A DNA stretch of 64,000 nt from Kiloniella litopenaei. Its GTDB lineage: Bacteria > Pseudomonadota > Alphaproteobacteria > Kiloniellales > Kiloniellaceae. The DNA is taken from the NCBI RefSeq assembly GCF_000982415.1, contig NZ_LANI01000017.1, positions 124,001-188,000 on the forward strand. Direction: 5' to 3'. Under the pieces are notes generated by a model that did no database searches, was not told the DNA's origin, and saw only the letters and a list, made by a program, of their open reading frames with translations. A program made the translations under genes and the position numbers. Below, one piece after another: positions 1,701 to 32,086 of the stretch (positions are counted from its first letter, which is position 1; every line of letters begins with the position of its first letter).

Positions 1701-2237
1701 TTATGAGGAAAGCTCTTTTTGGTGCATCCAGTCAGCATGCGTTGGGGCTTTTTTGGTTTTGGACCACTCTTCAAGCATTTGCCATTTCACGTCGTCGAGC
1801 TTTTTACTCATGTCCGGTGTTGCTGTGTTGACGGCCAGCTCAATACGATGACCACTTGGGTCAAAAAAGTATATGGATTGGAAAAGGGTGTGATCCGTTG
1901 GTCCTAATACATCAATACCATCCGCTTCCAGCTTGCTTTTAACGCCTAGCATTTCGTCCATTGTCCCTACGGAAAGTGCTAAATGCTGTACCCATTCCGG
2001 TGTGTTCGGATCTTTGCCCATTGGTGGGGAATTTGGAATTTCGAAAAAGGCCAAAATGGATCCTTTCCCGGCATCAAGAAAGATATGCATATAGGGATCA
2101 GGGGCCTTGGTTGAGGGCACTTCATTTTCAGCTATTGCGAGAATAAAATCCATGTTGAGGTATTTTCCATACCATTCGATAGTTTCTTTTGCATCTTTAC
2201 ATCTGTAGGCGACGTGATGGATTTGTTCTATTTTCAT
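1701..2237 (-). CDS. VOC-family dioxygenase/glyoxalase-like protein
   Basis: A 178-residue single-module vicinal oxygen chelate protein. H8, H85 (VQHLAL) and E133 (GHRIELA) give the 2-His-1-Glu metal site typical of extradiol dioxygenases and glyoxalases. The C-terminal 40 residues are charged and lie outside the module. GAGG sits seven bases before the ATG. It is the first gene of an operon with the FAH-family hydrolase, under a promoter containing the shared TAGTTTCA palindrome. The context points to a role in aromatic (tyrosine/homogentisate) breakdown. Whether it is the ring-cleaving enzyme, an isomerase or an accessory protein cannot be told from the sequence. Confidence 0.8.
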   Translation of the reverse strand: MKIEQIHHVAYRCKDAKETIEWYGKYLNMDFILAIAENEVPSTKAPDPYMHIFLDAGKGSILAFFEIPNSPPMGKDPNTPEWVQHLALSVGTMDEMLGVKSKLEADGIDVLGPTDHTLFQSIYFFDPSGHRIELAVNTATPDMSKKLDDVKWQMLEEWSKTKKAPTHADWMHQKELSS

Positions 2238-2344: not shown

Positions 2345-2364
2345 TTAGTTGCAAATGAAACTAA
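2345..2364. promoter_or_regulatory. Palindromic operator 1, VOC-FAH promoter
   Basis: TTAGTTGCAAATGAAACTAA, an imperfect 20-bp palindrome with one arm mismatch. On the minus strand it fills the spacer of a plausible promoter: TTGCAT (2369-2364), a 16-base spacer, then TAATAT (2347-2342). The same palindrome recurs at 24371-24388 and 30029-30046. It is probably the binding site of the MarR protein at 27465-27962, acting as a repressor. Confidence 0.7.
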
Positions 2365-2484: not shown

Positions 2485-3459
2485 TTAAGATACAATGCGT
2501 CGGCTTGTTTTGGGGGCCTGACCAAAACGATTACGATAGCTTCGGGCAAAAGATGTCGCAGAGTTAAAACCACATCGAATGGCAATGTCGAGGATGGATA
2601 GATCGGTTTGCTTCAATAACCGCTGTGCTATATCCAATCGATGGTTCCTGTAATAATTCGCTGGTGATGTTTTTAGATGTTTCTTGAAAAGCCGTTCCAG
2701 TTCTCTGACGGTAGAGCCAATTTCATGAGCCAGTTCTGTTATTAACAGTGGGGTTTCGACGGTTGCTTCCATCGTCTCAATTGCTTTTGTCAGGACTTTG
2801 TTATTCCTGATTTGTGGATTGTTTGAAATCAATCTTTGTGGGTTGTTGCCCTCTCTAAATCTTTGGTAAATAAAAATATCGGCGACATCAGTAGATAGCT
2901 TCAAGCCGTGTTGAACTCTGATAAGTTGCAGCATCATGTCCAGACTGGTTGTGCCGCCGCCTGATGTAAATCGGTTACGATCAACAATATAAAGATCCAG
3001 TTCTGCCTGCACATTAGGATAAGTCTCGGTAAAGCTCTCAAAGTTTTCCCAGTGAACGGTTGCTTTATAGCCATCGAGAAGGCCGGCCCTGGCAAGAATT
3101 TCGCTACCCGCATCCATGCCACCAAATTCAGTGCCTTTAGAACGAAGTCGTCGTAGAATTGCAGCGAGCTGTTTTGTATTACTCTCTTCTACATTATAGC
3201 TGGCACAAACGATTAAAACGGGAATATTGTCGTCCAGCGCAATTTCAGCATCAACATTAATGTCCATCCCGTTACTGGCGCGTACAGTTGAGCCCTGAAT
3301 GGAATATAACTTCCATTCATATATTTTTCCGCCAACTTTGAAATTGGCTGCGCGCAAGGGCTCCAGTGCTGATGAGAAGCAAAGCATGGAAAAACCTGGC
3401 ACAAGTAAAAAGGCAATTTTTTGAGGTTTGGATACTGCTTCTTTTCCAAATAGATACAT
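2485..3459 (-). CDS. cdhR: GlxA/CdhR-type AraC-family regulator
   Basis: A 324-residue transcription factor. A DJ-1/PfpI-like N-terminal domain (about residues 15-190) lacks an obvious protease triad, as is usual for the GlxA group. Two AraC-type helix-turn-helix units follow (about 220-320), ending in the typical DIAIRCGFNSATSFARSYRN segment. CdhR, the carnitine-responsive activator of Pseudomonas, has this architecture and is encoded beside the carnitine dehydrogenase genes, as here. It is divergent from the BKACE gene across a 151-base gap that contains two direct repeats 21 bp apart. I infer that it activates the plus-strand operon when carnitine or a derivative is present. The symbol rests on family and context. 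Confidence 0.8.
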   Translation of the reverse strand: MYLFGKEAVSKPQKIAFLLVPGFSMLCFSSALEPLRAANFKVGGKIYEWKLYSIQGSTVRASNGMDINVDAEIALDDNIPVLIVCASYNVEESNTKQLAAILRRLRSKGTEFGGMDAGSEILARAGLLDGYKATVHWENFESFTETYPNVQAELDLYIVDRNRFTSGGGTTSLDMMLQLIRVQHGLKLSTDVADIFIYQRFREGNNPQRLISNNPQIRNNKVLTKAIETMEATVETPLLITELAHEIGSTVRELERLFKKHLKTSPANYYRNHRLDIAQRLLKQTDLSILDIAIRCGFNSATSFARSYRNRFGQAPKTSRRIVS

Positions 3460-3492
3460 CTGACCGTTCTCATTTTTCAGATATGATGTTTA

Positions 3493-3522
3493 GCAAAATG
3501 TTTCATAATTAGTGCAAAATGT
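3493..3522. promoter_or_regulatory. Two direct repeats 21 bp apart, likely CdhR site
   Basis: GCAAAATGT occurs at 3493-3501 and again at 3514-3522, an exact 21-bp (two helical turn) phase in the divergent promoter between the regulator and the BKACE gene. AraC-family proteins commonly bind tandem half-sites with this spacing. The assignment is inferred from position and geometry. Confidence 0.6.
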
Positions 3523-3610
3523 AAATTGAGAAAAAGAAACCGACTTAAACTGAAAAAAAATAAAGAGGCGATCACTGGGATAGACAGGGTGGTCAAAAGA
3601 GGGAATTGTT

Positions 3611-4504
3611 ATGAATAACGAAGTTATTATTACCTGTCCTGTAACAGGGTCTGGTATAAAAAAAGAACGACACACGAATGTTCCTGTGACGCCGGAAGAA
3701 ATTTCGGATGCTGCTATTGAAGCTGCATTGGCAGGTGCTGCGGTTGCTCACTTACACGTTAGAAACCCTGATACCGGCCAAGCCAGTAACGACCTGGAAC
3801 TCTATCAGGAAACAGTTGGTCTTTTGCGCGATAAAATGAAGTCAAAAGGCGTAGATATTGTCATCAATATTACTGCCGGTATGGGCGGAGAGTTTGTACC
3901 AGATGCCACGAACCCCAATGTTGGTGGACCGGGAACTGATATGCTCAGTCCTGTTGATCGGCTCAAACATATCGATGCAATTCGTCCGGAAATCTGTACC
4001 TTTGATTGCGGGTCCTTGAATTTTAGCGACTATGCTTATGTTTCGACGCCGGATATGTTGCGTGAAATGGCGGCGATCATTCAAAAGATGGGGGTGAAGC
4101 CGGAAATTGAAGCTTTTGAATTCGGCCATATCTGGATGGCAAAGCAATTAATGTCAGAAGGTCTGATTGATGCGCCGCCTTTGTTTCAGCTTTGTCTGGG
4201 TATTCCCTTTGCAGCTGAAGCAAATGGTGAAACCATGCTTGCGATGCGTAACATGCTTCCAGAAGGGGCAAACTGGGGTGCTTTCGGGGTTGGTCCGGCA
4301 CAAATGCCCATGGCTGCACAGTCTGTGATCTTTGGTGGTCATGTTCGCGTAGGTCTGGAAGATAACCTTTATCTGGAGCGAGGCGTTCTTGCCACGAATG
4401 GACAGTTAGTGAGCAGAGCCAAGGAAATCATAGAACGGATGGGGGCAAAAACACTTACGGCCGAAGAAGCGCGTAAGAAGTTTAATGCCGTCAAACAGGC
4501 TTAG
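3611..4504 (+). CDS. cdhC: BKACE-family 3-dehydrocarnitine cleavage enzyme
   Basis: A 297-residue beta-keto acid cleavage enzyme (former DUF849). Members transfer an acyl group between a beta-keto acid and acetyl-CoA; the carnitine-specific one turns 3-dehydrocarnitine plus acetyl-CoA into betainyl-CoA and acetoacetate. The zinc-binding H-x-H is at H47 and H49 (HLHVRNPDTG), after a conserved ITCPVTGSG start, and the Zn-site glutamate region EAFEFGHIWM follows. GAGGG precedes the ATG. It leads an operon with the carnitine dehydrogenase gene 43 bases downstream and is divergent from the CdhR-like regulator. Substrate assignment rests on that context. Confidence 0.85.
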   Translation: MNNEVIITCPVTGSGIKKERHTNVPVTPEEISDAAIEAALAGAAVAHLHVRNPDTGQASNDLELYQETVGLLRDKMKSKGVDIVINITAGMGGEFVPDATNPNVGGPGTDMLSPVDRLKHIDAIRPEICTFDCGSLNFSDYAYVSTPDMLREMAAIIQKMGVKPEIEAFEFGHIWMAKQLMSEGLIDAPPLFQLCLGIPFAAEANGETMLAMRNMLPEGANWGAFGVGPAQMPMAAQSVIFGGHVRVGLEDNLYLERGVLATNGQLVSRAKEIIERMGAKTLTAEEARKKFNAVKQA

Positions 4505-4547
4505 ATAATAATTTCGAAATAGATAAATGAGAACAGGGTGTTACAAA

Positions 4548-6044
4548 ATGGCACGTGAAATCAAAACTGTTGCTGTCGTTGGGGCTGGCGTTATCGGAGC
4601 TGGATGGGCTGCTCGATGTCTTCATCGAGGCATTGATGTCGTCGTGACCGATGTCTCAGCCGATGCTGAACGTGGCATGAGAGAAGTGGTCTCAAATGCT
4701 GAACCAGCTTTGAACCAGCTTAGCCTTGCCCCCCGTAAAGAAAAGGGCACTCTGACTTTTACGACAAATCTTGTTGAGGCTGTCTCTAAAGCTGACTTTG
4801 TTCAAGAAAACGCCCCAGAGCGGGAGGACCTTAAAAGAAATCTTCTGGCTGAAATCAGTAAGCATGCCGCACCGGATGTTATTATTGCATCCAGTTCGTC
4901 CGGGTTGCTACCGTCCATTATTCAGGCAGACTGTATCCATCCAGAACGGGTTCTCATCGGTCATCCCTTCAACCCTGTTTACCTCTTGCCGTTGGTCGAG
5001 GTTCTCGGCGGTGAAAAAACAGGGGCACAATTTATCGAAGACGCAATGGCGTTCTATAGCTCAATCGGTATGAAGCCTCTGAAGGTTCGCAAGGAAATTG
5101 AAGGTTATATTTCTGACCGCCTACAAGAAGCTTTATGGCGAGAAGCGTTGCATATGGTTGCGGATGGTGTTGCAACAACGGATGAAATTGATCAGGCGGT
5201 TATATACGGACCGGGTTTGCGTTGGGCTTTTATGGGAACCTGTCTCACATTCCATCTTGCAGGTGGGGAACAGGGGATGCGTCATATGCTGGAACAGTTC
5301 GGACCAGCACTTGAGCTGCCATGGACCAAACTTAAAGCACCGGAACTGACCGATCAGCTTATTGATCGCATGGTTGAAGGCACGCAGCAACAGGCCGAAG
5401 GTTATTCGATCCGCGATCTCGAACAGCTGCGTGACAATTGTCTTGTTTCCATAATGCAGTCCCTGCGTAGCTTTAACTATGCTTCGGGGAAAGTCCTCAA
5501 AGAGGATGACGAAAAGCAGTATGAAGAAACCACTGGCTCAATTGAGTGGGCACCTGGTGATGATCTGAGCCAGCCCCTGAGCTTGCATAGTGACAAGGTG
5601 CATCCAGAGTGGGTTGATTACAATAATCACATGACGGAATCCCGCTATCTTCAGGTCTTTGGTGATGCTTCTGATGCGCTTTTCCGTTACGTCGGTGTCA
5701 ACGCTGATTACCACGCTAACGGGAACTCCTATTACACCGTTGAAACGCATATTAATAACATTCTGGAAGTGGCTGTTCATGAGCCGCTGAAGGTAACTAC
5801 TCAGTTAATGGGTGTCGATGACAAGCGTTTGCACTTCTACCACCGTATGTTTAACGCCAGAGACAACAGTCTTTTGGCGACGGCTGAACAGATGGTTCTC
5901 CACGTGGATATGAATGCAGGGAAAGCCTGCCCGGCAAAGCCACATATCCTGAAGACCCTTAATGTCATTATGGAAGCCCACAACAAGTTACCTGAACCTG
6001 AGAAGTTAAGCAGGCAGATGATGGTGCCTCCGGCCAAGAAGTAA
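4548..6044 (+). CDS. lcdH: L-carnitine dehydrogenase-thioesterase fusion
   Basis: A 498-residue protein, matching the length of the fused L-carnitine 3-dehydrogenases of rhizobia. The N-terminal half is a 3-hydroxyacyl-CoA-dehydrogenase-like NAD enzyme with a Rossmann GAGVIG at 12-17, then SSSSGLLPS and the signature GHPFNPVYLLPLVEVLGG. The C-terminal portion (about 345-480) is a hotdog thioesterase beginning HPEWVDYNNHMTESRY. The first part oxidises L-carnitine to 3-dehydrocarnitine. The second is expected to hydrolyse betainyl-CoA made by the upstream BKACE enzyme, giving glycine betaine. I chose the ATG at 4548 over one at 4527 because AGGGTG lies just before it and the protein then starts directly before the Rossmann strand. 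Confidence 0.88.
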   Translation: MAREIKTVAVVGAGVIGAGWAARCLHRGIDVVVTDVSADAERGMREVVSNAEPALNQLSLAPRKEKGTLTFTTNLVEAVSKADFVQENAPEREDLKRNLLAEISKHAAPDVIIASSSSGLLPSIIQADCIHPERVLIGHPFNPVYLLPLVEVLGGEKTGAQFIEDAMAFYSSIGMKPLKVRKEIEGYISDRLQEALWREALHMVADGVATTDEIDQAVIYGPGLRWAFMGTCLTFHLAGGEQGMRHMLEQFGPALELPWTKLKAPELTDQLIDRMVEGTQQQAEGYSIRDLEQLRDNCLVSIMQSLRSFNYASGKVLKEDDEKQYEETTGSIEWAPGDDLSQPLSLHSDKVHPEWVDYNNHMTESRYLQVFGDASDALFRYVGVNADYHANGNSYYTVETHINNILEVAVHEPLKVTTQLMGVDDKRLHFYHRMFNARDNSLLATAEQMVLHVDMNAGKACPAKPHILKTLNVIMEAHNKLPEPEKLSRQMMVPPAKK

Positions 6045-6195
6045 AACTTACGAGGACCTGTCATAAGCAGGTCTTCTAATAAACAACAATAATACAGATT
6101 GCCCGCGTGGCATCTCAGCTGTGCGGTCACTCTTCACGGTAAGGGACAGTCTTACCCAAACACGGACCCTGTTGAGAAGAATTGGGAGTAAGATT

Positions 6196-7356
6196 ATGGA
6201 TTTTGGTCTGTCACAAGAACAGCAAATGGTGGTCGACACAGTACGGGATTTTGTCGAAAAAGAACTGTATCCACATGAGAACACTGTAGAAGAGCTTGGT
6301 TATGTTCCCGAAGAACTCACGAAGGAAATCCGGCAGAAAGTTTTGGATTTAGGGTTTTATGCCGCAAACATTCCAGAAGAGTTCGGAGGCGGTGGACTGG
6401 ACTATGTCACTATGTCCTTGCTCGAGAGAGAACTGGGACGTGCTTCTCAGGCGCTGAGTGTTATTTTCGGTCGTCCTTCGAATATTCTTTGCGGCTGTAA
6501 AGGTGAGCAGGTTGAAAAGTACCTTATGCCTGCGATCCGTGGTGAAAAGATTGACTGTATTGCCATGACCGAACCTGATGCTGGATCAGATGTCAGATCC
6601 ATGAAAGCATCGGCCGTCAAGGATGGTGATGACTGGGTTCTCAACGGAACCAAACACTTTATCACCCATGCTGATGAAGCTGATTTTGCCATTGTTTTTA
6701 TTGCAACGGGGGAAGAAGAAACCCCGAGAGGCAAGAAAAAACAAATTACCTGTTTCCTTGTTGATCGTGGAACACCGGGATTTGAAATTCGAGAAGGCTA
6801 TAAATGTGTATCGCACAGGGGGTACAATAATTCCATTCTCAATTTTGATAATTGTCGTATTCCCGCTTCGCAAATACTCGGAGAGGAAGGTAAGGGATTT
6901 GACGAAGCCAATACATGGTTAGGGGCTACAAGGTTGACCGTAGCTGCCATGTCTGTCGGGCGGGCGCAACGTTGTTTTGATCTGGCAGTTAATTGGGCTG
7001 CAGAGCGAAAACAGTTTGGTCAACCAATTGGTAAATTCCAAGGCGTCTCTTTCAAGCTGGCTGATATGGCAACAGATATTCAGGCAGCCGAATATTTGAC
7101 TATGGGGGCAGCATGGAAACTGGATAAGGATCTTCCTGCTGATCAGGACATAGCCATGGCAAAAGTTCATGCGACAGAAATGCTGGCCAGAGTGACGGAT
7201 GAAAGTCTCCAGATCTTTGGCGGGATGGGATTGATGAACGAGCTGCCGATTGAGCGCTTCTGGCGAGATGCACGGGTAGAACGTATCTGGGACGGAACCA
7301 GTGAAATTCAACGTCATATCATTTCGCGTGGTCTCTTGCGGCCTCTTGGTGCGTGA
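6196..7356 (+). CDS. Acyl-CoA dehydrogenase (gamma-butyrobetainyl-CoA type?)
   Basis: A 386-residue FAD acyl-CoA dehydrogenase with the standard three-part fold. MTEPDAGSD marks the middle domain, RKQFGQPIGKFQ the C-terminal helical domain, and IWDGTSEIQRHI the end. In many family members the last motif carries the catalytic Glu just before GTS; here that position is Asp. In context with a CaiD orthologue it plays the part of CaiA, and in an aerobe probably oxidises gamma-butyrobetainyl-CoA to crotonobetainyl-CoA. The start at 6196 has GGGAG six bases upstream; a longer frame to 6121 lacks a ribosome site. It begins about 150 bases after the dehydrogenase gene, so a second promoter is possible. 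Confidence 0.85.
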   Translation: MDFGLSQEQQMVVDTVRDFVEKELYPHENTVEELGYVPEELTKEIRQKVLDLGFYAANIPEEFGGGGLDYVTMSLLERELGRASQALSVIFGRPSNILCGCKGEQVEKYLMPAIRGEKIDCIAMTEPDAGSDVRSMKASAVKDGDDWVLNGTKHFITHADEADFAIVFIATGEEETPRGKKKQITCFLVDRGTPGFEIREGYKCVSHRGYNNSILNFDNCRIPASQILGEEGKGFDEANTWLGATRLTVAAMSVGRAQRCFDLAVNWAAERKQFGQPIGKFQGVSFKLADMATDIQAAEYLTMGAAWKLDKDLPADQDIAMAKVHATEMLARVTDESLQIFGGMGLMNELPIERFWRDARVERIWDGTSEIQRHIISRGLLRPLGA

Positions 7357-7377
7357 TTTAAGTGAAGGTCCTGAGTG

Positions 7378-9456
7378 ATGGTCAGTCATGATAATATTAA
7401 ACGCCTCCTGAACCCGAAGACACTTGCTGTGATAGGGGGGCGAGAGGCTTCTGAGGTTATTCGACAATCCCGAAAGATGGGCTTTAAAGGCACAATTTGG
7501 GCAGTTAATCCCAAACGAGAAGAACTTGAAGGGATAAAGTGTTTCAGGTCGATTGCAGATTTACCGGAAGCGCCGGATGCAGCCTTTGTCGCGGTACCAA
7601 GAGCACCTGCTGTTGAGGTGATCGGGGATCTCAACCGAATGGGTGCAGGTGGTGCCGTTTGTTACACATCGGGCTTTTCAGAAACAAGTGATGGTCAGGC
7701 GTATCATCATACTCTCTTGGATAAAGCGGGTGATCTTCCTGTTGTTGGGCCGAACTGTTATGGGCTATTAAACTATCTTGATGGGGCCGCACTTTGGCCT
7801 GATCATCATGGCGGTGTCCATGTTGATAAAGGCGTTGCGATCATTGCGCAGAGCGGGAATATCGGCATTAGCCTTACGATGCAGGAAAGATCATTGCCTC
7901 TGGCCTATATGATCTCTGTAGGTAACCAAGCCCTATTGAGCATATCTGACTATATTGACGCCCTTTGTGAAGATGATCGCATAACAGCCATCGGTTTGCA
8001 TTTGGAAGGTGTTGAGAATATCTCTGAATTTTGTCGTGCGGTAAACAAGGCCAGAAGTAAGGGTATACCGATCGTTGCCTTGAAATCCGGTGGATCAGAT
8101 ATTGGTGCTGAGATTGCCCTGAGCCACACTTCCACTCTGGCTGGATCCGATGAATTGTATTCCGCATTGTTTCAGCGTATAGGCATCGCCCGCGTTCGTA
8201 CGCTGAGCGAGATGACCGAAACCCTGAAGTTGCTTCATGTTGCAGGACCGCTTTCAGGCAACAACATATCGTCACTTAGTTGTTCGGGGGGGGATGCCGC
8301 TTTGATCGCTGATTTTGGCAGTCAGCTTGGGCTTGGGTTCAACCCTATCCCGGATGTTCAGGCATCGCAGTTGAGAAAGCAGCTTGGCGATAAGGTTTCT
8401 ATATCAAACCCCTTTGATTACCACACCTATATCTGGGGAGATATCGAAGAGAAAACCGACTGTTTTACGCGGGTTATGCAGGGGGGATACGATATCAGCC
8501 TTTTGGTTCTCGATTATCCCAAAAGCGATCTGAGTGAAGCACATGAGTGGGATATTGCCTTGGATGCGATGATTGCGGCACAGAGAAACTCTGGGTATCA
8601 AGCGGCTGTTCTTGCCACCCTTCCGGAAAATCTCCCGGAAAAAGCACGATCCACTCTAATTAGAAACAACGTGGTACCTCTACAAGGCGTTGAGGATGGT
8701 TTAAAAGCCATTTCATCCGCCGCATGGATAAATGCCAAGTGGAAGGAGCTTGCTAATCATAAGGTATCTTCTACTGTCGAAAAATTTTCAAAGATCGAAA
8801 ATGAAATCGTTTTGCTGGATGAAGCACGGGCAAAATCAATTTTGGGAAAACAGGGAATTCCAATACCTAGAAGTAAAACGGTCTCTATTTCAGAAGCAGG
8901 TTTAACAGCGGAACAAATCGGGTTCCCCGTTGTCGTTAAAGCTGTAAGCGCCGAACTTGCGCACAAGACAGAGGCCGGCGGTGTGGCTTTGAACCTACAA
9001 GATGCTGAAGAGGTGATATCTGCGGCAGAAAGAATGGCGCATTTGTCTGACAAAGTTCTTGTCGAAAGTATGATCACAGATGTTGTTGCCGAAGTCATCA
9101 TTGGAGTGACAAGAGATCCTCAGTTCGGACTTTCACTTGTGGTCGGTTCTGGTGGTATTTGGGTCGAATTGTTGCAGGATTCAATACCGCTACTATTACC
9201 CATTTCCCGTGATGATGTTCTCAGTGCTTTGAAAAAACTTAAGCTTTACAGGGTACTGGAAGGTTACCGTGGCCAACCTGCTGGCGATATTGATGCGCTG
9301 ATTGATGTGATTTTATCAGTTGCTGATTTTGCCCTTCATAATCAAAAAACATTGGCCGAAATGGACTTAAATCCTGTTATGGTTCTGCCAAAGGGAAAAG
9401 GCGTTGTTATAGCAGATGCCATGATCCGCATGGCTAAAGAAGAAAGAGTGAATTGA
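7378..9456 (+). CDS. ADP-forming acyl-CoA ligase (carnitine/betaine type)
   Basis: About 692 residues with the acetyl-CoA synthetase (ADP-forming) architecture: a CoA-binding Rossmann domain (about 10-110), succinyl-CoA-ligase-like domains with the phosphohistidine loop [13 protein letters not shown], and a C-terminal ATP-grasp domain (about 470-690) with [20 protein letters not shown]. The family joins an organic acid to CoA using ATP. Placed between an acyl-CoA dehydrogenase and CaiD, it is the likely activator of gamma-butyrobetaine, crotonobetaine or carnitine, replacing CaiC or CaiB. A GTG three bases upstream is an alternative start; ATG 7378 is better spaced from AAGG. Its stop overlaps the next start (TGATG). 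Confidence 0.85.
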
Positions 9457-24316: not shown

Positions 24317-24370
24317 GATCATATGTAATGATCTCATAATATCATTGGGTTACAAGAATTGCTTGCAATA

Positions 24371-24388
24371 TAGTTTCACATGAAACTA
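24371..24388. promoter_or_regulatory. Palindromic operator 2, TRAP operon promoter
   Basis: TAGTTTCACATGAAACTA, a perfect palindrome with 8-bp arms around CA. It overlaps the -10 hexamer TATAGT (24369-24374) of a promoter with TTGGGT 18 bases upstream (24345-24350), as expected for a repressor site. A further 7-bp hairpin (24416-24436) lies in the leader before dctP. Confidence 0.75.
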
Positions 24389-24461
24389 CAATCTTTCCGC
24401 AAATAAATAATTTTCATCTCTGTATTAAGCAGAGATAAAATAAGAGCGGGAAGGCTATAGG

Positions 24462-25487
24462 ATGAAACGTACACTCATTGCGCTGACAACAGTTGCAAGT
24501 ACTGCATTGTTGTCAATTTTTTCTAATGCTGTCGCGGCAGAAATTGAACTAAAACTTAGTCACTTTTTACCGTCATCTCATCCGACCCAAACACAATTCC
24601 TTGAACCATGGGCAAAAGAACTCGAAGAACGAAGTGGGGGGGAGGTCAAGGTAACGATTTTTCCTGCTGGGTCAGCCTTTGGTCACGTCGCAAAGCAATA
24701 TGATCAGGTAAAGGCAGGCGTTGTTGATATTTCCCACGGTCTCACGGGTTTTCCTCGCGGGCGTTTGCCACGGACCTTGATCATGGACCTGCCATTCCTG
24801 ACAAAATCATCTGATGCTGCATCGCGAACATTATGGGATTTGTACCCGACTTATCTTGCCGAAGAATACAAGGGGTTAAAGGTACTCGCCTTACATGCCC
24901 ATAACCCCGGCCTTATTCATACGCGTGGAAAACAAGTTAAAAGCATGGATGATCTTGCCGGGTTGCGTGTACGTGCGCCGTCTGCGGCAACATCCATGAT
25001 GCTGAAGCAACTGGGGGCAACCCCGGTTGGTCTTCCCCCCACACAGGTTTATGAAAATCTGCAAAAGGGTGTGATTGACGGAACCATATTCCCTTATGAT
25101 GGTGTTCATGGTTTTAAGCTGGCCGAGGTTCTGGACTATCACCTTGATGCAAAGGCTTACACAACAAGCTTTTATTTTATCATGAACGAGAAAAAGTATA
25201 ACGCGTTACCTGAGAAAATCAGAACGATCATAGATGATATGTCCGGTGAGACACTGGTCGCGAAGTTTGGTCCCTGGTGGAATAATTGGGATAAACCGGG
25301 ATTGGAAGATATCAAGAAAAAAGGGAGTCCGGTTGTTGTTCTTGATGATGCTCAGAGAGAAGAGTGGCGCCGTGCGTTAGAACCAACGACAGCCGATTAT
25401 CTTAAAAGCCTTGAAGAAGCTGGCGTTGATAATGCACAGGAAATTTATGATGCTGCGGTAAAATCTATCGCAAAATACGAGCAGTAA
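24462..25487 (+). CDS. TRAP transporter solute-binding protein (DctP family)
   Basis: A 341-residue periplasmic binding protein with a Sec signal peptide ending at AVAA (about residue 26), then HFLPSSHPTQTQF and the family segment LRVRAPSAATSMMLKQLGATPVGLPP, which holds the Arg that binds the ligand carboxylate. It delivers a carboxylate substrate to the DctQ and DctM proteins encoded next. The unit also encodes a MarR regulator and maleylacetoacetate isomerase, and its promoter shares an operator with hpd and the VOC-FAH operon, so the ligand is probably an aromatic keto or hydroxy acid. A hairpin follows the gene. Confidence 0.9.
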   Translation: MKRTLIALTTVASTALLSIFSNAVAAEIELKLSHFLPSSHPTQTQFLEPWAKELEERSGGEVKVTIFPAGSAFGHVAKQYDQVKAGVVDISHGLTGFPRGRLPRTLIMDLPFLTKSSDAASRTLWDLYPTYLAEEYKGLKVLALHAHNPGLIHTRGKQVKSMDDLAGLRVRAPSAATSMMLKQLGATPVGLPPTQVYENLQKGVIDGTIFPYDGVHGFKLAEVLDYHLDAKAYTTSFYFIMNEKKYNALPEKIRTIIDDMSGETLVAKFGPWWNNWDKPGLEDIKKKGSPVVVLDDAQREEWRRALEPTTADYLKSLEEAGVDNAQEIYDAAVKSIAKYEQ

Positions 25488-25562: not shown

Positions 25563-26087
25563 ATGATTTCGAATATATCTAAATATTTTAATCAACTAAT
25601 TAAATATGTTACTTGGGTTGCGATCTTGTTTTTACTGGGCGCTATGCTCATTACAACGGTGGATGTTGTGTTGAGAAAGATTAATAACGCAGGGATTTAT
25701 GGCACCATTGATTTGGTACAGCTGATGATTATGTCGGCTGCATATCTCTCGATACCCTATGCTTTTATGAAAAAAAGCCATGTTGCGGTATCCATTCTAT
25801 CTGAACGTATGCCAGAAAAGGCGGCAGCGTTATGCCAAGCCTTGGGCATGGTTCTTTGCGTTATCTTTATGAGTGCCATTGCCTGGTTTGGTTTTGAGCA
25901 GGCTGAGCAGCAGCATCAATACGGCGATATCTCTATCACTCTCGGGTTGCCGATGATTTACTATTGGATACCTGTTTTAACAGGTTCAGTATTATCCGCG
26001 ATCGTTTCTGTCAGATTGCTAATCACCAGTTTTTTTAGTTTGTGTGGCGTAACACAAAGCTCATCAGAAGAAGGTGTAAATATTTAA
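25563..26087 (+). CDS. TRAP transporter small permease (DctQ family)
   Basis: A 174-residue membrane protein with four predicted helices, typical of DctQ. Features include VDVVLRKINNAGIYGTIDLV after the first helix and a conserved PYAFMKKSHVAVSI stretch. It forms the membrane complex with the large permease; its stop overlaps that start by one base (TAATG). Confidence 0.88.
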   Translation: MISNISKYFNQLIKYVTWVAILFLLGAMLITTVDVVLRKINNAGIYGTIDLVQLMIMSAAYLSIPYAFMKKSHVAVSILSERMPEKAAALCQALGMVLCVIFMSAIAWFGFEQAEQQHQYGDISITLGLPMIYYWIPVLTGSVLSAIVSVRLLITSFFSLCGVTQSSSEEGVNI

Positions 26088-27391
26088 TGGCTTCTTCAAC
26101 AATTGGTCTTATCGCCTTTGCTGTTCTTTTCGGATTGATCGCCATCAGGGTTCCCATTGCGATTGCGATGGGGATGGTGGGCTTGGTAGGTGGTCTTATC
26201 ATCAACGGATTTGATTCAGTTGCCTTCATTATGGGATCTGTTCCGTTTGAATCAATCTTTCCCTATTCGCTATCTGTCATTCCGTTATTTATTTTGATGG
26301 GGGTATTTTCTTCAAAAGCAGGCCTATCCAGAGCACTTTATGATGCAGCACATGCCTTTATCGGACATTATAAGGGCGGGCTGGCAATGGCGACTGTTGG
26401 TGCCTGTGCAGCGTTTGGTGCCATATGTGGTTCTTCTTTGGCAACGGCAGCAACCATGTGTCGTGTTGCAATGCCTGAAATGCGTCGCCGGAACTATGAT
26501 GATGGTCTGGCAAGTGCCACAATTGCGGCTGGCGGAACCCTGGGGGTTTTAATTCCCCCCAGCGTCATCATGGTGATCTATGCTATTTTGACACAACAAT
26601 CCATTGGCCGTCTCTTTGCTGCTGCTCTCATACCCGGTTTACTTGCGACGATACTTTACATGCTGGCTGTAAGAATAAAAATGGCCAGAAATCCCGGTTT
26701 GGCCCCCGCAGATATACCTGTTGACTGGTCTGGACGGATTGTTGCTATGCTCAATGTCTGGCCGGTTATCCTGTTGTTTGCTGTTGTGATTGGCGGGATT
26801 TACGCGGGGTGGTTTTCCCCAACAGAAGCCGCCGCGATAGGGGCTATGGGGGCTTTTATTCTTGCATTTCTCAAGAAGAAGATGGATCGGGATACCTTCA
26901 TCGAATGTCTGGAAGAGACGGCGAGTTCGACAGGGATGATCTTTATGATCCTTATCGGAACCGCGGTGTTTAATTATTTTGTCGAGACAACAGGTCTTCC
27001 ACAAGCTTTGGTGGCCTATGTCGGTGAACTGGGGTGGAATGAATATACCATCCTGATACTGCTTATAGTCTTCTATATTATCCTGGGGTGTTTTATGGAT
27101 GCATTATCAATGATTTTGCTGACGTTACCCTTTATATATCCTTTGATTACCAACATGGGATTTGATCCAATCTGGTTCGGTGTGATTATGGTTTCCGTTG
27201 TTGAGGTGGGATTGATTACACCACCTGTGGGTATGAATTTGTTTATCATCATGGCCGGAACACCGGGATTGAAATTACAGACCATTAGCCGAGGTGTTGT
27301 CGCGTTTCTAATGGCAGATGTTGTAAGGTTGGCTCTTTTGATCCTTTTTCCTGCGCTATCCTTATGGCTTCCGTCTTTGTTGATGGATTAG
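26087..27391 (+). CDS. TRAP transporter large permease (DctM family)
   Basis: A 434-residue ion-transporter-superfamily permease with about 12-13 membrane helices and family segments such as GSSLATAATMCRVAMPEM, AAGGTLGVLIPPSVIMVIYA and the C-terminal LITPPVGMNLFIIMAG. It couples substrate entry to sodium flow. I chose the ATG at 26087, which overlaps the dctQ stop; an upstream in-frame start lies inside dctQ. Confidence 0.92.
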   Translation: MASSTIGLIAFAVLFGLIAIRVPIAIAMGMVGLVGGLIINGFDSVAFIMGSVPFESIFPYSLSVIPLFILMGVFSSKAGLSRALYDAAHAFIGHYKGGLAMATVGACAAFGAICGSSLATAATMCRVAMPEMRRRNYDDGLASATIAAGGTLGVLIPPSVIMVIYAILTQQSIGRLFAAALIPGLLATILYMLAVRIKMARNPGLAPADIPVDWSGRIVAMLNVWPVILLFAVVIGGIYAGWFSPTEAAAIGAMGAFILAFLKKKMDRDTFIECLEETASSTGMIFMILIGTAVFNYFVETTGLPQALVAYVGELGWNEYTILILLIVFYIILGCFMDALSMILLTLPFIYPLITNMGFDPIWFGVIMVSVVEVGLITPPVGMNLFIIMAGTPGLKLQTISRGVVAFLMADVVRLALLILFPALSLWLPSLLMD

Positions 27392-27464: not shown

Positions 27465-27962
27465 ATGACGGAACAAAATTCAATGAAATCAAATAACGAA
27501 GTTTTAGATTTAAAAGACTTCTTTCCCTATAAGGTCCGCGTTTTTTATCGCTCGGTCAGTCAGTCTATTGCCGAGGTTTATACAAAGTCCAAAGGACTGA
27601 CTGTTTATCAATGGCGTGTAATGGTTGTGTTGGGAAACAGCCAACCACTTTCAGCGAGCGAAGTCGTCGACTATTCCAGTCTGGACAAGGTGCAGGTCAG
27701 TCGAGCGATCAAGGGTCTTTTAGAGAGAGATTTTATTGAACGCCACGTGGATGACATCGATAAGCGTAAAGTAAACCTGCTTTTGACCGTAAAGGGTAAT
27801 GATACTCTTCAGGAGCTCATCCCCCTTGTATTGAAGCGTGAGCAGGAAATTCTCGACGGATTGAGTGAAACCGAAAAAGAAACGCTGGAAAACCTGATGA
27901 GTCGCGTCTTGAAAAATGCAGATAAGTGCTTTGGGGCGGATAAACTGGTCGAGGATATTTAA
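27465..27962 (+). CDS. MarR-family transcriptional regulator
   Basis: A 165-residue winged-helix regulator. The recognition region LSASEVVDYSSLDKVQVSRA and wing DIDKRKVNLLLTVKG are clear, with dimerisation helices at both ends. It sits between the TRAP genes and maleylacetoacetate isomerase (two bases to the next start), so it is in their operon. MarR repressors bind 16-20-bp palindromes; the three TAGTTTCA-N2-TGAAACTA sites in this window lie before exactly the tyrosine-type units, so I infer it represses all three and its own operon. The effector may be homogentisate or a related acid. Confidence 0.87.
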   Translation: MTEQNSMKSNNEVLDLKDFFPYKVRVFYRSVSQSIAEVYTKSKGLTVYQWRVMVVLGNSQPLSASEVVDYSSLDKVQVSRAIKGLLERDFIERHVDDIDKRKVNLLLTVKGNDTLQELIPLVLKREQEILDGLSETEKETLENLMSRVLKNADKCFGADKLVEDI

Positions 27963-27964
27963 CT

Positions 27965-28618
27965 ATGAAGCTCTATAGCTATTGGCGATCCACAGCGGCC
28001 TATCGTGTTCGAATTGCTTTGAATCTTAAGAAGGTTCAATACGACATAATACCAGTTCATTTGGTTAAAAATGGCGGGGAGCAGCTTGGTGATAAATACA
28101 AAGAGATCAATCCGCAAAAAATTGTGCCAGCACTGGAAACAAAAGAAAGCGGAATACTCACCCAGTCAATGGCAATAATTGAATATCTGGACGAGGTTTT
28201 GCCCGGACATAGCCTTTTACCGGATAATGCAGTTGATAGAGCATTTATCAGAAGTTTATCCCAATTGGTCTGCTGCGACATTCATCCGATAAATAATCTG
28301 CGAGTTCTTAAATATTTAACGGGTGAAATGTTGCTTTCGCAGGATCAAAAATCCACTTGGTATGCACATTGGGTGTTGGAAGGATTATCAGCCTTTGAGC
28401 AACGGTTAAAAAAACGTAACGTGGAAGGGCAATATTGTTTGGGTTCAGAGCCGGGAATGGCTGACTGTTGTCTGGTTTCCCAACTCTATAACGCCCACCG
28501 TTTTGATATCTCTATTGCAAATTTTTCTGAAATAAGAAGAATTGAAGAAAACTGCCTGAAGCTAGAGGCTTTTGATCGGGCCCGACCGGAAAATCAGGTC
28601 GATGCTGAACCCGTTTAA
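27965..28618 (+). CDS. maiA: Maleylacetoacetate isomerase
   Basis: A 217-residue zeta-class glutathione S-transferase that isomerises maleylacetoacetate to fumarylacetoacetate with glutathione. The thioredoxin-like N terminus MKLYSYWRSTAAYRVRIALN carries the zeta motif (usually SS-C; here R-S-T-A-A), followed by NPQKIVPALE and QSMAIIEYLDE; the helical domain contains CCDIHPINNLRVLKYL. Together with HPPD and the FAH-family hydrolase it accounts for three steps of the homogentisate route. Homogentisate 1,2-dioxygenase of the usual HmgA type is not in the window. Confidence 0.9.
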   Translation: MKLYSYWRSTAAYRVRIALNLKKVQYDIIPVHLVKNGGEQLGDKYKEINPQKIVPALETKESGILTQSMAIIEYLDEVLPGHSLLPDNAVDRAFIRSLSQLVCCDIHPINNLRVLKYLTGEMLLSQDQKSTWYAHWVLEGLSAFEQRLKKRNVEGQYCLGSEPGMADCCLVSQLYNAHRFDISIANFSEIRRIEENCLKLEAFDRARPENQVDAEPV

Positions 28619-28686: not shown

Positions 28687-29790
28687 TTAGTCTGTTTTCA
28701 GCACGCCGCGGTTAACCTGATCACGTTCAATTGATTCGAACAGGGCTTTGAAGTTGCCCTCGCCAAATCCGTCATCGCCTTTACGTTGAATGATTTCAAT
28801 AAAGGCAGGGCCGATAACACACTTGGTAAAGATTTGTAGGAGAAGGCGTGGGGCGCCAGCTTCTGTTGCGCCGTCCAAGAGAATGCCGAGTTTTTTAAGT
28901 TTTTCAGGGTCTTCTCCATGACCGGGAAGGCGTTCATCCAGCATTTCATAATAGGTTGCAGGCGGGGCATCCATGAACTCAACGCCATTGGCGCGCATGT
29001 CTGATATTGTCTTATAGATATCTGGTGTTGTTAATGCGATATGCTGAATGCCTTCACCATTAAACTTCATCAGATATTCTTCGATCTGGCCTTTTCCTAC
29101 ATCAGATTCTTCGTTAAGTGGAATACGGATCTTGCCATCAGGTGCCGTCATGGCCTTTGATGTCAGTCCGGTGTATTCACCTTTGATGTCGAAGAAACGA
29201 ATTTCTTTAAAATTAAAGAATTTCTCATAGAATTCAGCCCAGTACTGCATACGACCACGATAGACGTTGTGTGTTAGATGGTCGATAATATCCATACCGT
29301 AACCTGTTGGATTACGATCTACACCGGGAAGGTATTCAAAATCGATGTCATAGATGCTGGAACCGTCTTCATAACGATCAATCAGATAGATCGGTGCGCC
29401 ACCAATACCTTTGATAGCTGGAAGTTTTAGTTCCATGGGGCCGCATGGGATATCTAGAGGCTGAGCGCCCAGTTCCAGGGCACGGTTATAGGCATAATGT
29501 GCATTCTCTACTCTAAACGCCATACCACATGGGGAGGGGCCATGCTCTTCAGCAAAGTAATAGGCTGGACTCTTCTTTTCTTTGTTGATGATAAAGTTTG
29601 TATTGCCTTGGCGATAAAGTTCAACATCTTTTGAACGATGTTTTGCAACAAGGGTGAAACCAATCGTAGTAAAGAGATCTTCCAAGACAGAGGCATCAGG
29701 TGCAGCAAATTCAACAAATTCAAAGCCATTCAGGCCCATTGGGTTATCAAACAAATCTGAACGTTCAGCCATTTTGTTCATTGTGGTCAT
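28687..29790 (-). CDS. hpd: 4-hydroxyphenylpyruvate dioxygenase
   Basis: A 367-residue two-module VOC enzyme that turns 4-hydroxyphenylpyruvate into homogentisate using Fe(II) and oxygen. The iron ligands are H171 (IDHLTHNV), H250 (GIQHIALTT) and E332 (FIEIIQR), and the C-terminal gate helix [15 protein letters not shown] is intact. Its promoter region contains a copy of the TAGTTTCA palindrome about 240 bases upstream of the start, which leaves a long leader. It is convergent with maiA across a bidirectional terminator. Confidence 0.95.
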
Positions 29791-30231
29791 CTTTTTTATC
29801 CATAGAAAGTAATCAAAATTAGGGGTGTAATTTTGTTACTGAGGGGATCCTCTGGATAAGCCTCTGTTTTCATTGGATAGAGTTTGCCCTATTGTCATGA
29901 TTATATAGGGTGCAAGTATCTTTGTGCGTGTCACCAGACGAAAAGCACGAACACCAAAACTAGGGGGTGTTTTAATACGGTGATGTCTTGTCATCGTGTG
30001 TTCCCCTTGGTTAAGGTGTTTACCATAATAGTTTCATTTGAAATTATATTGGTTGGCGATTTGATAGTCAAGAATAAGAGAGCTATTCAGGACAGTATTT
30101 TTCAAAAATATTTGTCAATTATTCTGGCGTGATGAGATGAAAAAATTTACCAACCAGAAAATTATTGTCTGGCTTTTATGGACCTGTGTATGATCAGCTA
30201 ACTTTTAGACCTATCTGCCAGAAAGAATTTC
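29791..30231. other. Divergent promoter region, hpd and sugar kinase
   Basis: About 440 bases between divergent genes. It contains operator 3 (30029-30046) and AT-rich promoter-like sequence for both sides. A plus-strand frame at 29884-30132 has no ribosome site or recognisable content and is not called. The hpd leader would be unusually long if transcription starts at the operator. Confidence 0.5.
30029..30046. promoter_or_regulatory. Palindromic operator 3, upstream of hpd
   Basis: TAGTTTCATTTGAAATTA, matching the palindrome at 24371-24388 in all arm positions but one. On the minus strand it abuts a -10-like TATTAT (30030-30025). It lies between hpd and the ribokinase-like gene; the link with hpd is preferred because the other two copies precede tyrosine-route operons. 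Confidence 0.6.
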
Positions 30232-31131
30232 GTGAAGCACAATACAATTATTAATATTGGTTCTATAAATGTCGATCACGTCTATCGTGTTCCTTATTTC
30301 GTAAAGCCGGGTGAAACCTTACCCAGTAAATCTTATCAACGGGTTTTAGGTGGGAAGGGGGCCAACCAGTCTGTTGCCCTTGCCAGAGCTGGTGAAACCG
30401 TGAAACACATTGGCGTTATTGGCGATGATCACACTTGGATTATCGACGAACTGAAATCGTCAAAAGTTGATGCATCATCTATCGAGATTGGGACTGTGGC
30501 AACCGGCCATGCTTTAATTCAGGTTGATGACAATGCCGAAAACTGCATTTTGCTTTTTGCGGGTGCCAATCATGAACTCAATCTCGACACCTTAACTGAT
30601 AAGCTTGCGGGTTTTGAAAAGGGTGGATGGGTCTTGTTTCAAAATGAAATGCCAAATCTCAATCAAATGATTTCTTTGGTAAAGAAAATGGGCGCCCGGG
30701 TTGCGGTGAATCCCGCACCTTTTGATGATGAGGCAAAAGCGATTGATTACGATCTTGTTGATTTACTGATTGTAAACGATCTGGAGGCAGAAGAACTAGC
30801 CAGAACGAAGTGTCAGGGGGATTTGTCTAAACTCGCTGAACTTTGTCCTGTTGTGATTGTGACCAGAGGGACACAAGGTGCTATTTGTTATTTCGGGGAT
30901 GATACAATCGAGGTTCCGGCGTTTAAGGTTAAAGCCGTAGATACTACAGGTGCTGGAGATACCTTTGTTGGCTATATTTTATCGTCAATAGCACAAAATT
31001 TACCGTTAAAAGAAGCTATGCAAAGGGCCAGTGCTGCCTCGGCACTGGCTGTTACAAAAGCGGGTGCTTCTGTTGCTATTCCAACCTCTGTTGAGGTGAC
31101 GCAATTTTTAGAGACTAAGAGTGATTTATAA
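30232..31131 (+). CDS. PfkB-family kinase, ribokinase-like
   Basis: A 299-residue cytoplasmic sugar kinase. The substrate-side motif GGKGANQSVALA (40-51) and the ATP/anion-hole motif DTTGAGDTFVGY (about 240) are intact. The length and GGKGAN motif fit ribokinase, which phosphorylates ribose at O5. The start is GTG with AGAAAG six bases upstream. The nucleoside hydrolase gene begins one base after its stop, so a nucleoside-to-ribose-5-phosphate salvage pair is the natural reading; other sugar or nucleoside kinases of the family are possible. Confidence 0.85.
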   Translation: MKHNTIINIGSINVDHVYRVPYFVKPGETLPSKSYQRVLGGKGANQSVALARAGETVKHIGVIGDDHTWIIDELKSSKVDASSIEIGTVATGHALIQVDDNAENCILLFAGANHELNLDTLTDKLAGFEKGGWVLFQNEMPNLNQMISLVKKMGARVAVNPAPFDDEAKAIDYDLVDLLIVNDLEAEELARTKCQGDLSKLAELCPVVIVTRGTQGAICYFGDDTIEVPAFKVKAVDTTGAGDTFVGYILSSIAQNLPLKEAMQRASAASALAVTKAGASVAIPTSVEVTQFLETKSDL

Positions 31132-31132
31132 A

Positions 31133-32086
31133 ATGAAAAATCCTGTAATTTTTGATACGGACCCGGGAATTGATGATGCCTTTGCTATACATCATGCCCT
31201 TTACCATCTTGAAATTAATTTGATAGGGCTAACGACTGTTTTTGGCAATGTTCCTGTAGAAACTGCTGCCAAGAATGCAAAAATTCTTGTTGAAATGGCC
31301 GGTCAGGATATTCCTGTTTTTCAAGGGGCTTCTGGGCCACTTGTTGCCCCGCACAAAGGTTTTCCAGATTTTATTCATGGGGCCGATGGCTTTGGCGATA
31401 TTAATTTACCCGATCCTAAAGGCAGCATTGAAAAGACATATGCCCCGCAGTTTATTATTGATTCCGTGCGTAAACAGCCGGGCGAAGTTACAATTATAGC
31501 TGTTGGACCTCTAACAAATCTGGCAATGGCGCTTCGTATGGCGCCTGACATTGCACCTCTGGTGAAAGAGGTCATTATTATGGGTGGTGCAGCGAAGGAA
31601 TATGGAAATATTTCTGCTGTTGCCGAAGCAAATATATTCAACGATCCTCATGCTGCTGATATCGTTTTTCGTGCTGACTGGCCAATGGTCATGGCTGGGC
31701 TAGATGTTACGCATCAGGTTATTCTGCATAGAAAAGAAGCAGAAGAATTGGCACAAAAAGTACCTAGAATAGGTGGCTTTCTACTGGATGCGGCAGATCT
31801 GTATTTCAAGTTCTACAATGGCGCATTTGGTATAGATGGATGCTATTTCCACGATCCCTGTGCAACAGCATATTATGTAAATCCAGATCTATTTGGATCC
31901 ATTGATGCCGCTGTAAGGGTTAGTTGTGAAGGTCCGGCTTTTGGACAAACCTTGATTAAGCCAAAAGGGCACCCGGGACCCTCAACAGAGTGGGATGGTT
32001 GTCGTAATCACAAGATCTTAATGCAAGTCAAGGATGCTGAGACAAAAGACGAAGTTCTGGGAACGATAGCTCAATTTGCTGATTAG
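31133..32086 (+). CDS. Inosine/uridine-preferring nucleoside hydrolase
   Basis: A 317-residue hydrolase that cleaves ribonucleosides to base and ribose. The calcium-binding N terminus VIFDTDPGIDDAFAIHHAL and the LTTVFGN, AVGPLTNLA and IIMGGA segments are diagnostic, and the C-terminal HDPCATAYYVNP contributes the last calcium ligand. ATG 31133 is eight bases after AAGAGTGA; an earlier GTG at 31121 overlaps the kinase gene. The released ribose would be taken by the ribokinase-like enzyme encoded before it. A terminator follows. Confidence 0.9.
   Translation: MKNPVIFDTDPGIDDAFAIHHALYHLEINLIGLTTVFGNVPVETAAKNAKILVEMAGQDIPVFQGASGPLVAPHKGFPDFIHGADGFGDINLPDPKGSIEKTYAPQFIIDSVRKQPGEVTIIAVGPLTNLAMALRMAPDIAPLVKEVIIMGGAAKEYGNISAVAEANIFNDPHAADIVFRADWPMVMAGLDVTHQVILHRKEAEELAQKVPRIGGFLLDAADLYFKFYNGAFGIDGCYFHDPCATAYYVNPDLFGSIDAAVRVSCEGPAFGQTLIKPKGHPGPSTEWDGCRNHKILMQVKDAETKDEVLGTIAQFAD

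Follow-up and report, generated by a model that had tools for sequence, protein, structure and literature searches.

Three copies of one palindrome in the 64-kb stretch of Kiloniella DNA that we analysed (the window) point to the operator regulon of an HmgS-type MarR repressor, in which a VOC-fold dioxygenase would carry out the HmgA step of tyrosine breakdown; we put the probability of this account as a whole at roughly 0.8. The regulatory principle is already known, and there is one recent PDB entry for the enzyme type. As far as the literature searched extends, the spread of the VOC enzyme and its coupling to the operator are undescribed.

A pattern scan of the 64-kb window with the motif TAGTTTCA-N2-TGAAACTA, allowing up to three mismatches, gave exactly three matches (Table 1). 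They lie where a preliminary description of this DNA had placed them (its interval 2345-2364 is copy 1 plus one base on either side), and that description was also right that the copy at dctP is perfect and that the window holds no further copy. The chance expectation for the window at this stringency is 0.33 matches, and one of 100 shuffles reached three. At up to one mismatch, a first-order Markov model predicts 0.0011 matches per 64 kb and 0.076 per 4.31 Mb, against the three seen. A scan of the whole genome, which had been suggested as a check, did not uncover many unrelated copies: in 4.31 Mb (85 contigs, completeness 100; genome G000), only the three copies of the window were found at up to one mismatch. 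Because a reversed control pattern gave more genome matches at up to three mismatches than the real motif (49 versus 20), weak matches are treated as background, and the looser genome matches (one with two mismatches, 16 with three) are regarded as background or as undecided. The window contains three perfect 8-2-8 palindromes of any sequence, the dctP site among them, so what is unusual is that one sequence recurs, not palindromy itself.

The match with two mismatches (G000:C14:86845-86862, outside the window; L004 1501-1518) lies upstream of a metallo-beta-lactamase-fold gene. The same letters, or one change from them, also occur in G009, G011 and G012. This weaker, fourth copy is a possible fourth member of the regulon.

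Table 1. Palindrome copies, promoter-like matches and genes of the proposed regulon (window coordinates)
Feature	Position	Strand	Remark
Palindrome copy 1 (VOC-FAH)	2346-2363	.	TAGTTGCAAATGAAACTA, 1 mismatch
Palindrome copy 2 (dctP)	24371-24388	.	TAGTTTCACATGAAACTA, perfect, 0 mismatches; in -35/-10 spacer
Palindrome copy 3 (hpd)	30029-30046	.	TAGTTTCATTTGAAATTA, 1 mismatch; over -10 of hpd
FAH, fumarylacetoacetate hydrolase family protein	643-1665	-	PF01557 with PF18288
VOC-fold protein, 178 aa, proposed homogentisate 1,2-dioxygenase in place of HmgA	1701-2237	-	
Promoter-like TTGCAA-18-TACAAT, encloses dctP palindrome	24363-24392	+	9 of 12
dctP, TRAP transporter solute-binding protein	24462-25487	+	
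dctQ, TRAP small permease	25563-26087	+	
dctM, TRAP large permease	26042-27391	+	
MarR-family regulator, 165 aa, HmgS-like, proposed binder of all three palindromes	27465-27962	+	
maiA, maleylacetoacetate isomerase	27965-28618	+	TIGR01262 over cut-off
hpd, 4-hydroxyphenylpyruvate dioxygenase	28687-29790	-	TIGR01263 over cut-off
hpd promoter-like TTGACT-17-TATAAT	30043-30071 (30071-30043)	-	11 of 12

The copies lie upstream of VOC-FAH, of dctPQM-marR-maiA and of hpd, as had been described, and the gene identities given in that description were confirmed by domain and family matches. Copy 3, however, sits between hpd and a divergent pfkB-type kinase gene at 30232, and is thus upstream of both. 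The MarR gene does form one unit with dctPQM and maiA; through maiA, and through hpd, which adjoins that unit, the regulator is linked to the homogentisate pathway. The palindrome had been said to overlap promoter elements, which is borne out at dctP, where it occupies the spacer of a promoter-like match, and at hpd, where it covers the -10 of one. Our promoter scan reported three promoter-like matches in the dctP region, compared with 0.8 in shuffles, and three in the hpd region, compared with 1.6. At the VOC site the claim stands in part: a TTGCAT-16-TAATAT frame, read by eye, is kept in 5/5 genomes, but the scan of this region did not report that pair and gave one other match, compared with 1.4 in shuffles. 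Such a placement of the palindrome would be typical of a repressor site.

The position of copy 3 raises the question of whether it serves the pfkB-type gene instead of hpd, in which case the regulon would not be purely one of the tyrosine route. hpd, site and pfkB occur together in L035, L037, L239 and L242, and also in G011, in a block away from maiA; we dropped the argument that the palindrome follows hpd and not pfkB in G011, as pfkB moved along with hpd there. Two observations nevertheless favour hpd. The best-scoring promoter match points towards hpd, and its -10 is overlapped by the site; in addition, G012 (L039) keeps site and hpd with no pfkB match in the ~600 bases that remain of its short contig. 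We therefore consider service to pfkB in place of hpd unlikely, although MarR control of the pfkB-type gene as well is possible, given that this gene stays with hpd and the site. The pfkB-type kinase gene and an inosine-uridine nucleoside hydrolase gene (window 30232-32086) are divergent from hpd in L035, L037 and L239.

A lack of conservation in relatives, which had been named as a danger to the regulon, was not seen: the sites are near-invariant in Kiloniella. Invariant columns number 18/18 at the VOC site (five genomes), 17/18 at dctP (five genomes) and 18/18 at hpd (four genomes), compared with 85/188, 54/169 and 61/177 in the flanks of the same alignments, where flank columns include alignment gaps. 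The site is present at VOC-FAH in 8/9 genomes of the genus and at dctP in 8/9 (with two mismatches in G012); in the ninth genome, G010 (77% complete), the sole match is parS-like. The site is kept at hpd in the five genomes checked (G000, G009, G011, G012 and G014), and a matching site lies on a separate contig in G013. Among the named genomes, the MarR protein stands at 93% to that of K. spongiae, and such hits place the window within Kiloniella or adjacent to it. In K. laminariae (G007), VOC-FAH and dctPQM-marR-maiA are back to back with one site apiece, but its hpd lies in another cluster (L133), where no site was found at up to three mismatches across 19.9 kb, so that membership of hpd in the regulon is not universal. 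With that reservation, the comparative evidence supports the proposal that one MarR protein would act on three units, its own included.

The regulator is a MarR-family winged-helix protein (PF12802 and PF01047 over cut-off), and MarR proteins bind palindromes of this kind as dimers. Outside the genus, the palindrome is often found beside MarR homologues and the same pathway genes. Among 25 VOC loci outside the genus, seven have a site with up to two mismatches, compared with a mean of 0.02 loci and a maximum of one for 500 shuffled half-site palindromes; the other 18 have no site within about 1.5 kb. We aligned 37 MarR rows (L075 and L107 are one locus) and compared recognition helices with sites. 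MarRs with DKS in the recognition helix pair in 5/5 cases with sites that do not begin TAG, those with HKT (six rows) pair with TAG sites that lack a TTTCA arm, of the TAGTTACA...TGTAACTA type, and most of those with DKV or DKP have at least one TTTCA arm, L095 being an exception. An altered recognition helix thus appears to go with an altered site. No convincing site was found within 1.5 kb in L006, L010, L011, L012 and L113 (the window alone was searched to 6 kb upstream). Because the presence of a site was the reason for first choosing some of the 37 loci, the proportion that have one cannot be taken as an unbiased rate; for the Pseudoalteromonas, Tistrella and Neorhizobium loci, MarR similarity was the only criterion of choice.

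These pairings bear on whether a regulator other than MarR binds the palindrome, be it the AraC/GbdR-like protein at 2485-3459 or an unlinked factor, with MarR a bystander. An AraC-family gene does lie directly upstream of the VOC promoter, and binding of the palindrome by MarR is predicted. In different genera and families, nevertheless, the palindrome accompanies MarR homologues, and its sequence changes where their recognition helix does; moreover, binding of such palindromes by MarR dimers is general knowledge of the family; we regard a different regulator as quite unlikely. As a separate observation, at 2485-9456 of the window the AraC/GbdR-like regulator has a CoA ligase and a 3-hydroxyacyl-CoA dehydrogenase-thioesterase fusion in its vicinity. 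The region resembles a catabolic island of the carnitine or choline type, and no palindrome copy was found inside it.

The preferred binder, MarR, has a described counterpart. From the part of Leyn et al. 2016 (PMC5343134) that we drew on, the nearest described system is the regulon of HmgS, a MarR-family regulator of Alteromonadales and Pseudoalteromonadales that is predicted to control hmgAB; it resembles the present system as a MarR-family regulator of homogentisate-pathway genes in tyrosine degradation. The Pseudoalteromonas MarRs, picked by protein similarity, are 32-37% identical to the window MarR and divergent from hmgA-maiA, with TACTCTCATGTGAGAGTA-type palindromes in between. These intergenic palindromes are of the TACTCTCA-N2-TGAGAGTA type, one of three with one mismatch, and have the same 8-2-8 skeleton as those of the window. 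This layout, together with the description of HmgS, leads us to place the window regulator with HmgS, of which it is likely a relative. The two systems differ in their targets, which are predicted to be hmgAB for HmgS (in the same portion of PMC5343134) and here would be hpd, maiA, FAH, a TRAP transporter and a VOC-type dioxygenase, with no hmgA. They also differ in the site, which is TAGTTTCA here and TACTCTCA in the Pseudoalteromonas loci (as read from those loci, not from the published HmgS motif).

The preliminary description had expected the motif before hmgA in particular, and this was not the case. The window genome has hpd, maiA and FAH, and no HmgA was found in it by TIGR01015 or PF20510 (one weak PF20510 match in G007, E 8e-5 in a 49-aa frame with stops, is taken as chance); the VOC protein would take its place. 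HmgA has a cupin fold, unrelated to the VOC fold, and the reaction proposed for the window VOC is that of HmgA (TIGR01015).

The distribution of the two proteins was compared in a class sample of 385 genomes, of which 119 have HPPD (E <= 1e-60), 122 match the HmgA model at some level (49 of them above its curated cut-off) and 27 have VOC at 182 bits or more. The 119 HPPD genomes divide into 17 with VOC and no cupin, five with VOC and cupin, 93 with cupin and no VOC, and four with neither, the last of which speak against the whole account. VOC is therefore present in 17/21 HPPD genomes without an HmgA-type cupin, versus 5/98 with one (Fisher p 8e-13, which ignores shared ancestry), and the 17 VOC-only genomes span 10 families. 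In the five genomes with both, the cupin is canonical in three and distant in two; a fragmentary HmgA in G222 was counted as canonical. The VOC threshold leaves uncounted 33 of 60 listed genomes with lower scores. Eight of these reach 131-148 bits, and the four among them with HPPD (G087, G207, G300 and G377) all have canonical HmgA. With the threshold lowered to 131 bits, the counts are 17 VOC only, nine both, 89 cupin only and four neither (p 8e-11, again ignoring ancestry). Within genus g47 (24 genomes), eight have VOC alone, 11 hmgA alone, two both and three neither (p 0.011, shared ancestry likewise ignored). A phylum sample of 398 genomes has VOC (E <= 1e-35) in 48; of the 42 of these that had not entered the earlier comparisons, 10 have HmgA over the cut-off and four have weaker or partial matches.

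A distant HmgA-like cupin, mostly scoring about 65-100 bits to TIGR01015 and in several cases beside hpd (e.g. G055:C3:227751-228605), is the only cupin in 59/119 HPPD genomes, compared with canonical HmgA in 39. It is a candidate third kind of homogentisate dioxygenase.

The VOC protein carries the residues of an extradiol dioxygenase. H8, H85 and E133, which would be the metal ligands, are invariant in 22/22 aligned VOC homologues, as are H116 and Y123, and what we take to be the extradiol dioxygenase signature, His...Tyr-x-x-Asp-Pro-x-Gly...Glu, is present in 21/22, the window protein included. The His-His-Glu set and this signature are shared with the two-domain extradiol enzymes catechol 2,3-dioxygenase and 2,3-dihydroxybiphenyl dioxygenase, and the window VOC weakly matches the C-terminal portion of the catechol 2,3-dioxygenase model. 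Unlike those enzymes, it is a single domain of 178 aa, and its proposed substrate is a para-diol. The predicted structure was poor (mean pLDDT 58.7, from three sequences) and was not used as evidence.

The closest solved relative is PDB 9U42, which aligned over residues 3-177 of 178 by phmmer (249 bits, E 2.6e-73) with 54% identity by Foldseek. The entry, released on 2025-07-23, is entitled 'Crystal Structure of Homogentisate 1,2-Dioxygenase from Acinetobacter in Complex with Zn ion'. The title is the depositor's label, and the VOC role was first assigned from gene context, before the title was known; the relationship to 9U42 rests on sequence, the fold searches having served mainly to read the title. 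No paper behind 9U42 was found in the literature searched, and none of the sources there, some of them partial texts, described a VOC-type homogentisate dioxygenase, a statement about print that is limited to that search.

Acinetobacter baumannii has a homologue that is nearly identical to 9U42 (394 bits) and 60% identical to the window VOC. It sits with fahA, maiA and hppD, and the regulator alongside is of another type (IclR). Available passages of several papers touch on this locus. PMC7646211, a pyomelanin study, describes Acinetobacter as having no hmgA homologue and, between hmgC and hmgR, a gene with a ring-cleaving domain that probably has no dioxygenase activity; this gene appears to correspond to the VOC gene. 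In PMC11945678, likewise on pyomelanin, 'hmgA' is a 633-base stretch that overlaps a 1308-base 'hmgB' by 14 bases. In the A. baumannii locus (L225 7045-9537), maiA and fahA have exactly these lengths and this overlap, so that the 'hmgA' of that excerpt is probably maiA, a mislabel that probably arose because Acinetobacter lacks a cupin HmgA. Among the biofilm-changed genes in the section of PMC3758355 consulted, the first ratios are 60.1 for fumarylacetoacetase, 24.5 for maleylacetoacetate isomerase, 24.3 for a glyoxalase/dioxygenase and 78.6 for HPPD. In the second ratio, in columns whose headings we did not read, the glyoxalase is not raised (1.02) and the other three are. The portion of PMC9431530 consulted reports a pigmented strain with an interruption in a gene it calls hmgA, whose overexpression removes the pigment.

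Gene neighbourhoods offer a further view of the VOC protein. The protein forms hpd-VOC-FAH operons, and proteins annotated only as 'VOC family protein' occur in hppD-VOC-fahA of Ideonella dechloratans, in fahA-maiA-VOC of A. baumannii, with hppD two genes on, and with FAH and maiA on an Enterobacter plasmid. In hand-compiled lists, VOC lying no more than about 1.3 kb from an HPPD with 55% identity or more (context A) occurs in 22 genomes, of which one has HmgA (G619, 452 bits) and another, G528, only a 30-bit fragment. VOC with a PRK08132-type FAD monooxygenase adjoining or one gene off (context B) occurs in 15 genomes, with canonical HmgA in six and the distant cupin in G206 and G224. Left out of both lists were G532 (an HPPD 43% identical beside VOC, with a distant cupin), G486 (HPPD 2.8 kb off), VOCs below 182 bits beside the monooxygenase (HmgA is present in G686 and G765 and absent from G439) and VOC genomes that lack the two neighbours; G720, which shows both contexts, was counted in A only. 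Since VOC in context B stands beside a FAD monooxygenase instead of hpd, substrates may differ between subgroups.

Three observations on neighbourhoods stand apart. L185, L186, L187, L189, L192, L193, L201, L204, L208 and L218 combine VOC and the PRK08132-type monooxygenase, often with FAH, maiA or hmgA, and possibly represent another route into homogentisate or a related ring. Five genomes of family f190 (G713, G711, G633, G729 and G430), in the same phylum but another class and, at a guess, gammaproteobacteria, lack hmgA and carry VOC in surroundings that have no relation to the pathway. Finally, a cluster of G288 (L135) combines FAH, maiA, a dctPQM homologous to that of the window, hpd and a MarR with canonical HmgA and no VOC; the TRAP transporter thus accompanies the pathway even where HmgA is used.

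Coexistence with HmgA could mean that VOC is an accessory protein of the pathway, homogentisate being cleaved by an unrecognised enzyme. The strongest fact against plain replacement is the cluster of G712 (L192), where monooxygenase, VOC, HmgA, MaiA and FAH are in one cluster; VOC and HmgA are also at most 12 kb apart in G352, G660, G730 and G496, and there are the 5/22 HPPD and VOC genomes that also have a cupin. An accessory role is nonetheless very unlikely in view of the distribution complementary to HmgA, the hpd-VOC-FAH operons, the invariant extradiol active-site residues and the close homologue solved as a homogentisate 1,2-dioxygenase. Substitution for maleylacetoacetate isomerase was ruled out for VOC because maiA sits in the same regulon. 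On these same grounds, namely distribution, operons, extradiol residues and similarity to 9U42, the VOC protein appears to fit the missing step of homogentisate ring opening.

That the palindromes are chance matches or parS-like sites is scarcely credible: the parS of ParB, TGTTTCACGTGAAACA, shares GTTTCA..TGAAAC with the palindrome, and some two-mismatch matches in relatives (TTGTTTCACGTGAAACTT in G007, G008 and G010) resemble it, but none of the three window sites has the CACGTG core; their arms are of the TAG/CTA type, and they lie, conserved, in promoters of one pathway, so that parS identity was rejected for them. The TTGTTTCACGTGAAACTT occurrences at G007:C1:119117, G008:C33:271429 and G010:C115:5740 look like parS sites and are not to be counted as operators.

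For Kiloniella we infer MarR binding, repression, the inducer, the transporter substrate and VOC catalysis as follows. The palindrome would be the operator of the HmgS-type repressor. Without inducer, a MarR dimer on each copy would block RNA polymerase at three promoters, those of VOC-FAH, dctPQM-marR-maiA (by autoregulation) and hpd, until a pathway intermediate, most likely homogentisate or 4-hydroxyphenylpyruvate, released it. The TRAP transporter would take up an aromatic or keto acid, Hpd would convert 4-hydroxyphenylpyruvate to homogentisate, and the VOC-fold dioxygenase, standing in for the missing HmgA, would convert homogentisate to maleylacetoacetate. MaiA would then yield fumarylacetoacetate, which FAH would split into fumarate and acetoacetate.

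More tentatively, and with rather less than even confidence, we speculate that a VOC-fold dioxygenase has repeatedly replaced HmgA across alpha-, beta- and gammaproteobacteria, together with hpd, FAH or maiA and often under an HmgS-type operator, and that in a second context it works with the FAD monooxygenase on homogentisate or a similar ring of different origin in an undescribed aromatic pathway.

The palindrome ties a protein annotated only as 'VOC family protein' to tyrosine breakdown. VOC would supply the missing homogentisate step in organisms with hpd but no hmgA, which in the class sample of 385 genomes are the 17 VOC-only genomes among the 119 with HPPD. For A. baumannii, the view in the consulted passage of PMC7646211 that dioxygenase activity is probably lacking stands against the title of 9U42, a near-identical protein. 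Annotation or metabolic models that seek only HmgA will call such pathways broken.
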